Below, one piece after another: positions 19,195 to 25,202 of a stretch of 64,000 nucleotides of DNA. The translations under genes were made by a program, and so were the position numbers. The DNA is taken from NCBI RefSeq assembly GCF_003024685.1, contig NZ_PYLQ01000003.1, positions 1 to 64,000 of the forward strand, read 5' to 3'. Numbering within the stretch: position 1 is the first letter of the stretch; every line of letters begins with the position of its first letter. This DNA comes from Faecalibacillus intestinalis. Its GTDB lineage: Bacteria; Bacillota_I; Bacilli_A; Erysipelotrichales; Coprobacillaceae. A model generated the notes under the pieces. It worked only from the letters and a program-made list of their open reading frames with translations. It was not told the origin of the DNA and searched no databases.

Positions 19195-19207
19195 TTAGAG
19201 ACTTTTT
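19180..19207. terminator. Bidirectional terminator
   Basis: AAAAAGTCTCT, loop TTAATT, AGAGACTTTTT. It contains the stop codons of both convergent genes. Confidence 0.92.
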
Positions 19208-19845
19208 AAATACGCTGTAACTTCAGTTAAATCTTTTAAAATTTTAAATGTTTTTTCTTCATATTGTTTTTCTGGATATTTCATATCAGGAATGCAAATT
19301 ACTTTGATGTTTGCATCATAGCTTGCTTGAATTCCTGCTTCACTATCTTCTAAAACAATAGCTTCATCAACATTAACGCCAAGTTTTTGACAAGATTTTA
19401 AGAAAACTTCAGGATTTGGTTTTCCTTTAGTAACTTCGTCACCACAAATAGAATCATCGAAGAATTCTGTAATTTTAGCTTGTGCTAAAATTTTATCTAC
19501 ACGATCACGATTACTTGAAGTAGCAACAATTGTTTTATAATTATTATCTTTTAAATAATGTAATAATTTAACAAGTCCTTTTTTTACAGGAACTCCTTCT
19601 GTTTCAAAACGTTCAGCCATTAATTGATGTACATCTTGAATCACGTTTTCAATAGGAAAATCATTTCCATAAACATCATAAAATCTTTGATAGATTCCTT
19701 TAATAGGTTTCCCTAATAATGTTTTATAAAATTCTTCATCCATTGTTAAATTCATATCTTTTAATCTTTCTTGATAACATTCAAAAGTAACACGTTCGCT
19801 ATCAATCATTAAACCATCCATATCAAATATTATTGCTTTAATCAT
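19195..19845 (-). CDS. HAD-IA phosphatase, beta-phosphoglucomutase-like
   Basis: A 216-aa enzyme with a C1 cap. Motif I FDMDGLMIDSE (residues 7-17) has both aspartates. Ser/Thr motif ATSSNRDRV lies near 108, GKPNPEVFLKS (Lys) near 142, and VLEDSEAGIQA near 162. DMDGL(M/L)xDSE is characteristic of the phosphoglucomutase/phosphatase group acting on sugar phosphates. There is no partner gene. It is convergent with the wall-polymer operon and divergent from mazF. Confidence 0.88.
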   Translation of the reverse strand: MIKAIIFDMDGLMIDSERVTFECYQERLKDMNLTMDEEFYKTLLGKPIKGIYQRFYDVYGNDFPIENVIQDVHQLMAERFETEGVPVKKGLVKLLHYLKDNNYKTIVATSSNRDRVDKILAQAKITEFFDDSICGDEVTKGKPNPEVFLKSCQKLGVNVDEAIVLEDSEAGIQASYDANIKVICIPDMKYPEKQYEEKTFKILKDLTEVTAYLKSL

Positions 19846-21995: not shown

Positions 21996-22710
21996 ATACT
22001 TTTATACCTTTTATTAGATAAGACCATGTTTTTTTACCAACGATGCCATCTACTTTTAAATTTCTATTATTTTGAAATTTCTTAACAGCTTTTTCGGTAT
22101 TGATACCAAAGATACCATCAATTTTTAAGTTGAATCCTACAAAGTTAAGGCGTTCTTGAATGAGTCTTGTAATTTTTCCTTGGGCATCTCTTTTAACAGT
22201 AGGATACGTGCGAAAACCTTGTTTTTTAATTTCTTGATTTAAACGTTGCAACCAAGTATCTTCTAAAACAATATGATTTGAAGAAATAATTGTAGAAAAT
22301 GGAAAATGGGTTCCTGGACAATCTGTAGAAGCAACATCTTTATGTCTTTTAATGCTAGAAAGGTGATATTTATTTTTTATATAAGAAACTAAATCAATTA
22401 AGGCATTGAGTTGTAAAGGATTCATTTCTTCTTTCATGAAATCTCCTTCAGCACAAATACCGATTGAATCATGATTTGCACCTTTAGCATGCGCCCCGAT
22501 TGTATCTTCAGGTCTACCTTGATAAATCGTACCATCTTTTCTTACTAAGAAATGATATCCAATTCCACTCCAACCTTTTTTTAAATGCCACTGATGGATA
22601 TCTTCTACACTACATGTTTTTGCTTGTGCATGATGCAAAATAATTCTATTTGTTTTATTTCTTTTGAACAATGGAGAAGCCCAGTTGTATTTTTTACGAA
22701 TGATTTGCAT
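21994..22710 (-). CDS. N-acetylmuramoyl-L-alanine amidase with PG-binding domain
   Basis: A 238-aa protein. An Amidase_2/PGRP domain at about residues 20-150 has zinc ligands in IILHHAQ and HKDVASTDCPG, and a general acid region IGYHFLVRKDGTIYQG. A C-terminal peptidoglycan-binding domain (about 165-235) has LNFVGFNLKIDGIFGINTE and FQNNRNLKVDGIVGKKTW. It cleaves the MurNAc-L-Ala bond. There is no signal peptide, as in phage endolysins, but no holin or phage gene is near. It may be a domesticated lysin or act on imported muropeptides. Confidence 0.9.
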   Translation of the reverse strand: MQIIRKKYNWASPLFKRNKTNRIILHHAQAKTCSVEDIHQWHLKKGWSGIGYHFLVRKDGTIYQGRPEDTIGAHAKGANHDSIGICAEGDFMKEEMNPLQLNALIDLVSYIKNKYHLSSIKRHKDVASTDCPGTHFPFSTIISSNHIVLEDTWLQRLNQEIKKQGFRTYPTVKRDAQGKITRLIQERLNFVGFNLKIDGIFGINTEKAVKKFQNNRNLKVDGIVGKKTWSYLIKGIKV

Positions 22711-23083: not shown

Positions 23084-23341
23084 ATGGCAATGTATACTTT
23101 AAAAGGGATTGGTGAAATATCAACAGATGCTTTTGATGAAAAAATTACTTTAAGAAATTTATTACAACATTTTAGTTTTTATGATTTTATTATTGTAGAT
23201 ACAAAACAAAATATTCTTTTTCAATATAATTCAAATGATGATTGGTTTCATAATCTAATTAGTTTAAAGAAGTTTTATAATCAAGAAGTTATTACAGTAT
23301 ATAAAAAAGAAAATCATTTTTATATTTCAATAGATTTTTAA
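23084..23341 (+). CDS. Unrecognised 85-aa protein paired with XRE regulator
   Basis: An 85-aa soluble protein with no family I recognise. It starts MAMYTLKGIGEISTDAFDEK behind AGGTGA. Alternating hydrophobic/charged strands (YDFIIVDTKQNILFQYN, EVITVYKKENHFYISIDF) suggest a small mixed or all-beta fold. There is no signal peptide, helix-turn-helix or catalytic motif. Its strong promoter carries an inverted repeat, and it faces a small XRE regulator, an arrangement seen in small regulated or toxin-like modules. That reading is speculative. Confidence 0.6.
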   Translation: MAMYTLKGIGEISTDAFDEKITLRNLLQHFSFYDFIIVDTKQNILFQYNSNDDWFHNLISLKKFYNQEVITVYKKENHFYISIDF

Positions 23342-23720: not shown

Positions 23721-25202
23721 ATGTTTTATAGTCAAACATGTGAAAATATAAAATTGATTATTTTTACGTTAGATGGTGGCTTATTAGATCTCAATAGACT
23801 AAGATATAATTATTATCGAAGTACATGTGAAACCTATCATAAAGTTGCTACTCGTGAAGATTTTTCTAAAATGCTTGGAAATATGAATACGATGTATGAT
23901 CATTCTTTACTGTCTGATTATATTTCTGCTAAAGATTTTAATAGAATGGTTGAAAAGGATTTATTTGAATATATTAAATTAAAACCTAATATTAAAAGAG
24001 AAGGTGTTGATGAGTTGATTCAATATTGTAAACAAAAAGATATCAAGATTGCAGTATATACGACTCATAAAACAAAAAGAGCTATTCAATATTTACAACT
24101 TGCAAAGATCTATGAAAAAATTGATTTTTTAATTGGTGGAGATTCACGACTTAAACCTTTACCTGAAGTGGATATTTTAGAGGTGACGTGTCAACGAATG
24201 AACATTGATCCTTCTCATACAATGGTGGTTGCTAATTTTGAATCAATGGTTGAAGCGGCTAATCAATTACTTGCAAATGTTATTTACATGCCAGATTTAG
24301 TGCCAGCCAGTGATAAGATAAAGGCCAGTGTTTATAAAATAACTAAAAATCATTTAGAAATTATGAATATGTTTTTATTTTCTAAGTATGATTCTGTGGA
24401 ATTGTTTTCACCGCTTCTTGGAATGAATGCACAAATGGATTTGGAAACTTTGACACATACTCGAGATCAATTATTGGATAAATATAAAGATGACGAGCAA
24501 TTAATTGCATTGGTTAATAGAACATATGATTATTTCAATGAAATCTTATCAAAACAATTTTTAATTAATGAGTTAGAAAAACAAGAAACAAAGAGATTTT
24601 CATTTGATGATGAACAAAATGATAACGTTCAAGAGGTTCATGATAAATTTAATGATGTTGTTTTAGAACAAGAGCAAGAAGATGAAATTTTACCTGATGA
24701 ACAGGATGATACGTTTCTATTTTCTAAGGCATCTTCTTTGGATCCCCAAAGAATGAGTGAATTAATGGATATTATAAATGGAGATGCCGTAGATGAAAAA
24801 AGTCATGAGGAGAATAAAACAAATGAAGAAAATAAAAATAATACGTTAGAACAAGAACATTGGTTAAATAAAGTAATTGATGTTGTTTATAATTTATTGA
24901 TTTCGGTTATTATTGTATTTTTTGCTTTAATTGTACAAATTTTATTTCAAGGAGATTCTTCTAAACTTGCACAAATTATCAATATGATAATCGATGGTTA
25001 TGTAGGAATTATAAATTTTATTTTTGGTGTGTTGTTTGATATTTTACATAGTTTTATAAGTGTAATACCATCATATAAAATGTTTGTTTATCATAATTCA
25101 TCGCTATCATCAATGGCGGTAATTGCGCTATTGACTATTATTTCAAATTTTATTTTAATAACTTTAATTAAGAAAATTGTTCAAATGTTGAAAAAAGACT
25201 AA
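23721..25202 (+). CDS. Membrane protein with degenerate HAD-like domain
   Basis: A 493-aa protein in three parts. Residues 1 to about 215 have a HAD-IA layout, but the nucleophile is lost: IIFTLDGGLLD (Thr16 for Asp). Motif III is kept loosely (RLKPLPEVD), and motif IV is VVANFESMVEAA instead of VVGDSxxG. Residues about 290-385 form an acidic, low-complexity linker rich in Glu/Asp/Asn. The C-terminus has about three helices (VYNLLISVIIVFFALIVQIL, YVGIINFIFGVLFDIL, VIALLTIISNFILITLI). Phosphatase activity is unlikely; a binding or scaffold role is inferred. Confidence 0.7.
   Translation: MFYSQTCENIKLIIFTLDGGLLDLNRLRYNYYRSTCETYHKVATREDFSKMLGNMNTMYDHSLLSDYISAKDFNRMVEKDLFEYIKLKPNIKREGVDELIQYCKQKDIKIAVYTTHKTKRAIQYLQLAKIYEKIDFLIGGDSRLKPLPEVDILEVTCQRMNIDPSHTMVVANFESMVEAANQLLANVIYMPDLVPASDKIKASVYKITKNHLEIMNMFLFSKYDSVELFSPLLGMNAQMDLETLTHTRDQLLDKYKDDEQLIALVNRTYDYFNEILSKQFLINELEKQETKRFSFDDEQNDNVQEVHDKFNDVVLEQEQEDEILPDEQDDTFLFSKASSLDPQRMSELMDIINGDAVDEKSHEENKTNEENKNNTLEQEHWLNKVIDVVYNLLISVIIVFFALIVQILFQGDSSKLAQIINMIIDGYVGIINFIFGVLFDILHSFISVIPSYKMFVYHNSSLSSMAVIALLTIISNFILITLIKKIVQMLKKD

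Follow-up and report, generated by a model that had tools for sequence, protein, structure and literature searches.

Fungal Tim50, the membrane presequence receptor of the TIM23 complex, possesses an imperfect HAD motif and is described, in the part of the source cited here, as having no phosphatase activity (PMC8346121). Among J-like proteins, CJD1 carries a J-like domain that is devoid of the HPD triplet and is followed by three predicted membrane segments; the cited part of its description reports that CJD1 did not complement DnaJ and bound another J-like protein in the yeast two-hybrid system, and that its mutation alters fatty-acid composition (PMC3196505). The HAD_2 / beta-phosphoglucomutase-like phosphatases, such as the MtlD domain, pseudouridine-5'-phosphatase, and CbbY, and the PAP2 undecaprenyl-diphosphatases are the other described systems that bear on the present locus. 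Neither family-wide bacterial HAD pseudophosphatases nor a bacterial HAD/J-like membrane protein was found in the literature searched, which covered titles and the beginnings of abstracts.

In the window analyzed here, a stretch of 64,000 nucleotides of Faecalibacillus intestinalis (NZ_PYLQ01000003.1, positions 1 to 64,000), the gene at 23721..25202 on the + strand encodes, from an ATG start, a membrane-anchored pseudo-HAD / J-like protein of 493 aa. A sequence-only reading of this DNA had described a pseudo-HAD domain, an acidic linker, and a membrane region at this place, and this observation was confirmed for a real gene. With the HAD_2 phosphatases, the protein shares its fold and cap, the second Asp of motif I, and Ser/Thr in motif II; unlike them, it lacks the nucleophile, the metal-site acids, and, in most orthologues, the Lys, and a J-like domain, a linker, and an anchor have been added. 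It resembles Tim50 in that both are membrane-anchored HAD-fold proteins, which is a likeness in the way of working and not homology beyond the HAD fold, and it differs in that Tim50 belongs to the CTD-phosphatase branch of HAD, bears its anchor at the opposite end, and faces the intermembrane space. The likeness to Tim16/Pam16 would lie in the J-like fold, Tim16 being the top structural row for the J-like model, and not in a demonstrated tie at the sequence level. That to CJD1 lies in the combination of an HPD-less J-like domain with membrane segments, again, as far as the cited account of CJD1 goes, in the way of working and not in membership. The PAP2 undecaprenyl-diphosphatases provide the nearest named models of a candidate operon partner, yet with scores far below the cut-offs. 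To our knowledge, neither Tim16 nor CJD1 and CPP1 of plants and cyanobacteria possess a HAD domain.

The pseudo-HAD domain and its catalytic motifs

Residues 1-205 (23721..24335, + strand) form a capped domain of the HAD_2 / beta-phosphoglucomutase-like fold. Pfam HAD_2 matched residues 13-182 of the protein (E 2.2e-14) with 54.4 bits, above the cut-off of 23.8, and in an AlphaFold model of the whole chain, built from a 23-row alignment (mean pLDDT 76.7, pTM 0.48), the HAD Rossmann-like core and the C1 cap are both present. Past this domain, the model contains helices at residues 211-220, 225-233, 241-254, and 259-292 and long C-terminal helices. The HAD part aligns to solved sugar-phosphate phosphatases, most closely to 7ocs_A, the phosphatase domain of MtlD (Z 25.9, rmsd 2.4, 217 residues); the absence of a family from the structural match lists does not exclude it.

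The four HAD motifs are named here in the customary way, by their usual residues, and were compared over a set of 37 orthologues that includes the window's copy. In the motif I remnant TLDGG (residues 16-20; 23766..23780, + strand), Thr16 stands in place of the nucleophile Asp and Asp18 is kept. The claim of the sequence-only reading, a HAD fold with Thr for the nucleophile, is thus borne out by the profile match, the modelled fold, and Thr16, and its notion of homologues with the same Thr stands for the window's genus (4/37) plus one distant copy, the others having mostly Ser, Pro, or Glu. Over the whole set, the nucleophile position is occupied by Thr in five, Ser in 10, Pro in 15, Glu in six, and Asp in one, and the second Asp of motif I is present in all 37. 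The motif II loop TTHK (residues 114-117; 24060..24071, + strand) is likewise conserved, with Ser/Thr in 37/37 and T115 and H116 nearly invariant. The motif III Lys145 (24153..24155, + strand), unmentioned in the earlier reading, is retained in the window's copy, although Lys occurs in only 3/37 orthologues and is gone from the other 34. Motif IV is reduced to Ala-Asn (AN, residues 171-172; 24231..24236, + strand); the metal-binding acids are lost, and an acid at either position was found in 0/37 orthologues, in agreement with the degenerate motif IV described before. Of the residues of a HAD enzyme, the second Asp and the motif II Ser/Thr are therefore kept; over the family, the motif I nucleophile Asp (1/37) and the motif III Lys (3/37) are largely lost and the motif IV acids entirely.

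The kept residues, the Thr or Ser at the nucleophile position of 15 orthologues, the single Asp, and the Lys of the window's copy could be taken to indicate that the protein is still a working phosphatase or phosphotransferase, with Thr/Ser serving for Asp or with activity regained in another way. Because Pro or Glu occupies the position in 21/37 orthologues and a motif IV acid occurs nowhere, such an enzyme is very unlikely. The widespread loss of the Lys also speaks against it, and the residue at the nucleophile position tracks the clades of the tree, as expected for a free position. Close homologues with a restored Asp, named in the earlier reading as the sign of local decay, amount to one in 37 (L051, Eggerthia). 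This copy is not an active relative, since its motif III Lys and motif IV acids are missing and it nests in an otherwise Glu-bearing clade. Judged by the motif losses over the 37 orthologues, the earlier proposal, that a HAD phosphatase gave rise to a protein without enzymatic function, is supported. By profile, genes of this type come out as HAD hydrolases and would be mistaken for enzymes. About 3.9 kb upstream, at 19195-19845 (- strand), the window also contains an active-type HAD with a DMDG motif, which groups with the active HADs in the tree.

Distribution, descent, and selection

The distribution was followed by a protein search of 98 genomes, an order-wide profile search of 294, and a phylum-wide profile search of 392. 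Full-length orthologues were found in 37 of the 43 genomes of the window's bacterial family (Coprobacillaceae-type), and no full-length match was found outside it among the 294 genomes of the order or the 392 of the phylum; elsewhere, only the HAD part was matched, between profile positions 5 and 218 of 519. The open reading frame measures 472-669 aa in 36/37 orthologues. A scan of named genomes yielded 23 loci. Those with a named organism belong to Thomasclavelia, [Clostridium] spiroforme, Erysipelatoclostridium, Stoquefichus, Massilimicrobiota, Eggerthia, Sharpea, and Kandleria, several of which are assigned to Coprobacillaceae by NCBI; the others come from uncultured or unassigned isolates. 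The gene was missing from six family genomes (G001, G003, G006, G021, G028, and G035). Three of these assemblies are only 69-82% complete (G001, G006, and G028), a contig end lies close to the syntenic place in G006, G028, and G035, and G003 is also without the flanking NUDIX gene, so that the locus is outside its assembly or was lost whole; only G021 has no such excuse.

In a tree with 19 active-type HADs, all 37 orthologues lie on one side of a single branch with a support of 100/100, and this split recurs in every one of the 200 bootstrap trees; the tree carries a warning of long branches, L068, L062, and L067 being some of these. The alignments comprised 33/37 orthologues (A1, without L044, L056, L067, and L068), the window's copy with 22/23 named-genome copies (A2, without L077, the frame of which is broken), and the latter additionally without L083, which has a gap in helix II (A3). 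Values of dN/dS lie at 0.05-0.15 for the HAD part (9/9 pairs) and are lower for the J part than for the linker in 8/9 pairs, namely those with a defined J-part dS; non-catalytic residues are conserved clade-wide. Because the orthologues form one clade under strong purifying selection, the protein is, on these sequence comparisons, an inherited pseudoenzyme and not a case of local decay.

Decay of a HAD phosphatase into a pseudogene would explain the lost catalytic residues, and one genome, G042 (L044 and L077), does have a frame that is broken before the membrane part, with the remainder in another frame and the PAP2 gene intact. Presence across the family with reading frames of preserved length, the motif pattern, the low dN/dS together with the conserved non-catalytic residues, and the tree rule out local decay as a general account, and its probability is close to nil. 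An IMG/VR contig of 24,381 bases (L069) ends in a 98% identical copy of the pseudo-HAD gene; for this reason, it probably holds the host flank of an integrated element near the tRNA genes. The window's gene and this copy differ at seven synonymous and eight non-synonymous codons, a pair too close to be informative, which taken alone gives no sign of strong constraint.

J-like domain, linker, and membrane region

Between the HAD domain and the linker lies a module that had been overlooked in the first reading, a J-like domain at approximately residues 224-275 (24390..24545, + strand), recognized by profile comparisons. In canonical J domains, the helix after HPD contains A-Y. In the present family, an LG turn (35/37) and a helix ending in a KYxDD-like sequence are followed by a helix with T-Y (33/37). 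When the region was aligned by hhalign with the J domains of DnaJ from related genomes (located in 29/30 loci), the score was 32.5 with a probability of 85. None of 159 decoy windows, cut from further conserved proteins encoded at these loci (families of at most 22 members each, rows less than 40% filled being dropped), scored above 19.9, and windows of the pseudo-HAD protein outside 181-306 reached at most 18.3. A profile of residues 206-291 (24336-24593, + strand) searched against PDB sequences at E <= 10 returned 22 matches, of which 17 were J domains, none below 1e-3; the top match was the staphylococcal uracil-DNA glycosylase inhibitor SeUGI (9iro_B, E 0.0095), which is not a J domain and probably matched by chance. 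Pfam DnaJ matched 2/22 J-like regions (0.026 at best), as did Pfam CPP1-like (0.031 at best); in the window's protein, the latter covers the J-like part only (profile positions 8-41 of 196, E 0.67) and not the full length of that family. Modelled alone, the domain reached a mean pLDDT of 79.3. Foldseek placed a J domain in 19 of the first 20 rows, with E values above 1, and the top row of VIA-align was Tim16 (2guz_B; Z 6.9, rmsd 1.9, 57 residues), tied with xRbj (6.5), at a Z below the level that the structure-alignment tool calls safe for helical folds.

The position of the HPD triplet is occupied in the window's protein by Lys-Asp-Asp (residues 256-258; 24486..24494, + strand), and HPD between helices II and III was found in 0/37 orthologues, its third Asp being present in 36/37. 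Helix II, which is basic in DnaJ (KR 5.72, DE 2.00; n=29), is on average acidic here (KR 2.51, DE 3.51; n=37). The region therefore has the profile and register of a J domain without HPD, and the missing triplet and the acidic helix II make it most likely, as judged by sequence, that this J-like domain does not work with DnaK. The profile match and the third Asp would also fit a co-chaperone at the membrane that, like membrane J proteins, recruits DnaK through its J-like domain. This function is highly improbable because the HPD is missing; helix II is not basic, and in the cited part of PMC3196505, HPD-less J-like domains are classed apart and that of CJD1 does not complement DnaJ. The window's genome encodes a second J protein of 207 aa (L161:232-855, - strand), in which an HPD-bearing J domain and a middle region precede a hydrophobic C-terminus very rich in cysteine.

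The linker (residues 291-377; 24591..24851, + strand) was delimited by its composition, with an acidic fraction of 0.29 and a basic fraction of 0.09, and by pLDDT, which falls below 50 at residues 291-341 and 353-377; the earlier claim of an acidic linker is thereby upheld, and the segment is disordered in the model. Over the orthologues, its length varies from 81 to 277 residues, mostly acidic, and it is not conserved as a whole. Two short motifs are embedded in it. The first, FSFDDE (residues 293-298; 24597..24614, + strand), recurs as an FxFDDE-like pattern in 23/37 orthologues, the matches of L037 and L044 lying approximately 30 residues further on, and SLFEDE-type variants occupy its place in several others. 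The second, around LDPQRMSELMDIING (residues 341-355; 24741..24785, + strand), was recognized in the alignment and corresponds to a helix modelled with low confidence at residues 342-352; the pattern DPxRxNELMDIING / LxxEExELxxLLxQIN is seen in most alignment rows.

Three hydrophobic segments follow. The first membrane segment (residues 392-410; 24894..24950, + strand) has a mean hydropathy of 2.77 and lies in a model helix at 373-409, the middle segment (residues 428-446; 25002..25058, + strand; 1.99, helix 415-445) would either span the membrane or lie in its surface, and the last membrane segment (residues 465-483; 25113..25169, + strand; 2.58, helix 464-492) completes the series. Two strongly hydrophobic C-terminal segments are present in 36/37 orthologues. 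At the hydropathy threshold used, at least three segments were counted in 18/37 and two in 18/37, with none in L044 (broken frame), and because the further segment passes in only about half, two or three membrane helices are possible. The three helices of the sequence-only reading thus apply to the window's protein, whereas 18 orthologues show two; likewise, what is conserved of linker and helices is the pair of short motifs and the hydrophobic C-terminus, not the linker as a whole. The charges of the C-terminal tail (KR 3.03, DE 3.48 over 33/37 orthologues) point to neither side of the membrane. No extracellular domain was found in the protein, in which the HAD and J-like domains both precede the membrane region, and the term "receptor-like" is accordingly not supported; of the earlier interpretation, the non-enzymatic HAD derivative is upheld.

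A J-like domain, a membrane region, and conserved linker peptides could also constitute a membrane tether for a cell-division protein, comparable to the J-like chloroplast division protein ARC6 as described in the cited part of PMC3196505. Such a role is quite unlikely: the usual FtsZ tethers SepF (31/31 genomes) and EzrA (30/31) are present and FtsA scored above the cut-off in 19/19 family members searched, leaving no tether gap to fill, and the pseudo-HAD locus showed no linked division genes.

The PAP2 neighbor and a possible adaptor role

Across the family, synteny at this locus is largely preserved. A tRNA-Lys(CTT) gene adjoins the pseudo-HAD gene in most loci scanned, and tRNA-Ser, tRNA-Asp, NUDIX, RluD-type, ROK, MnmA, and RecD2 genes are the other members, in few arrangements. 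In the window, an endolysin-like N-acetylmuramoyl-L-alanine amidase (Amidase_2 and PG_binding_1) at 21997-22710 (- strand), near the tRNA-Lys gene, is perhaps a prophage remnant, and between the amidase region and the tRNA-Lys gene, an 85-aa open reading frame at 23084-23341 (+ strand) has no family match at E 0.001.

In 19/37 loci, the next gene on the same strand encodes a small PAP2 phosphatase (PF01569, E 2.5e-21). Taken from the start of its longest open reading frame, it shares 11-77 nt with the 3' end of the pseudo-HAD gene in 18 of the 19 loci, the nineteenth being that of G042 with the broken frame. Orthologues of this PAP2 with 45-100% identity to the L036 copy occur in exactly 19/43 genomes, each directly after the pseudo-HAD gene; the next-best PAP2 matches in other genomes have at most 38% identity. 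The nearest NCBIfam models are SepP (5.3e-20 and 8.1e-19) and undecaprenyl-diphosphate phosphatase, with even the best score, 72.1 of 250 bits, falling far short of the curated cut-offs. No PAP2 gene lies beside the pseudo-HAD gene in the other 18/37 orthologue-bearing loci, the window's included, and PAP2 is therefore neither the sole partner nor the whole function. The constraint on the membrane region, compared over 33/37 orthologues, gave a mean ratio of 1.88 in eight disjoint pairs with PAP2 versus 2.53 in six without, with overlapping ranges. A promoter scan gave 16 sites against a shuffle mean of 14.0, which is no excess, and its sole terminator-like site lies inside the pseudo-HAD gene.

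With a HAD domain lacking its catalytic residues and a J domain lacking its key motif, a scaffold or adaptor, not an enzyme, is most likely, and the degenerate J-like domain and the two conserved linker motifs add weight to a scaffold. We consider that the protein is probably a non-catalytic adaptor at the membrane, specific to this family. Its HAD and J-like domains would face the cytosol. The HAD fold may serve as a binding platform, as its phosphate-side loops, the second Asp, STHK, and PLP are still conserved after the loss of catalysis. Without stimulating DnaK, the J-like domain could bind a partner, possibly a client or another J domain, and the linker motifs may capture further partners. 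The hydrophobic end could anchor the assembly in the membrane, with the flexible acidic linker acting as a tether. Where the PAP2 gene follows (19/43 genomes), the assembly would probably position or regulate that lipid-phosphate phosphatase; as a whole, the PAP2 partnership in the species that bear the gene is put forward tentatively, as a possibility that falls short of being probable. Still more doubtful is a fuller reading in which two dead folds on one chain, of the kinds that mitochondria employ at their inner membrane in Tim50 and Tim16, would form an adaptor that escorts or regulates the co-translated PAP2 in about half of the species. If it holds, lipid-carrier recycling through a PAP2 lipid-pyrophosphate phosphatase would be controlled by a pseudo-phosphatase.

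Pseudoenzyme scaffolds are already known; more telling here is that a second retired fold accompanies the first. By joining an HPD-less J-like domain to the pseudo-HAD, the protein offers a well-defined bacterial setting for studying both retired folds at once, and the PAP2 neighbor is a concrete, assayable candidate partner in the cell-envelope lipid recycling of gut bacteria.
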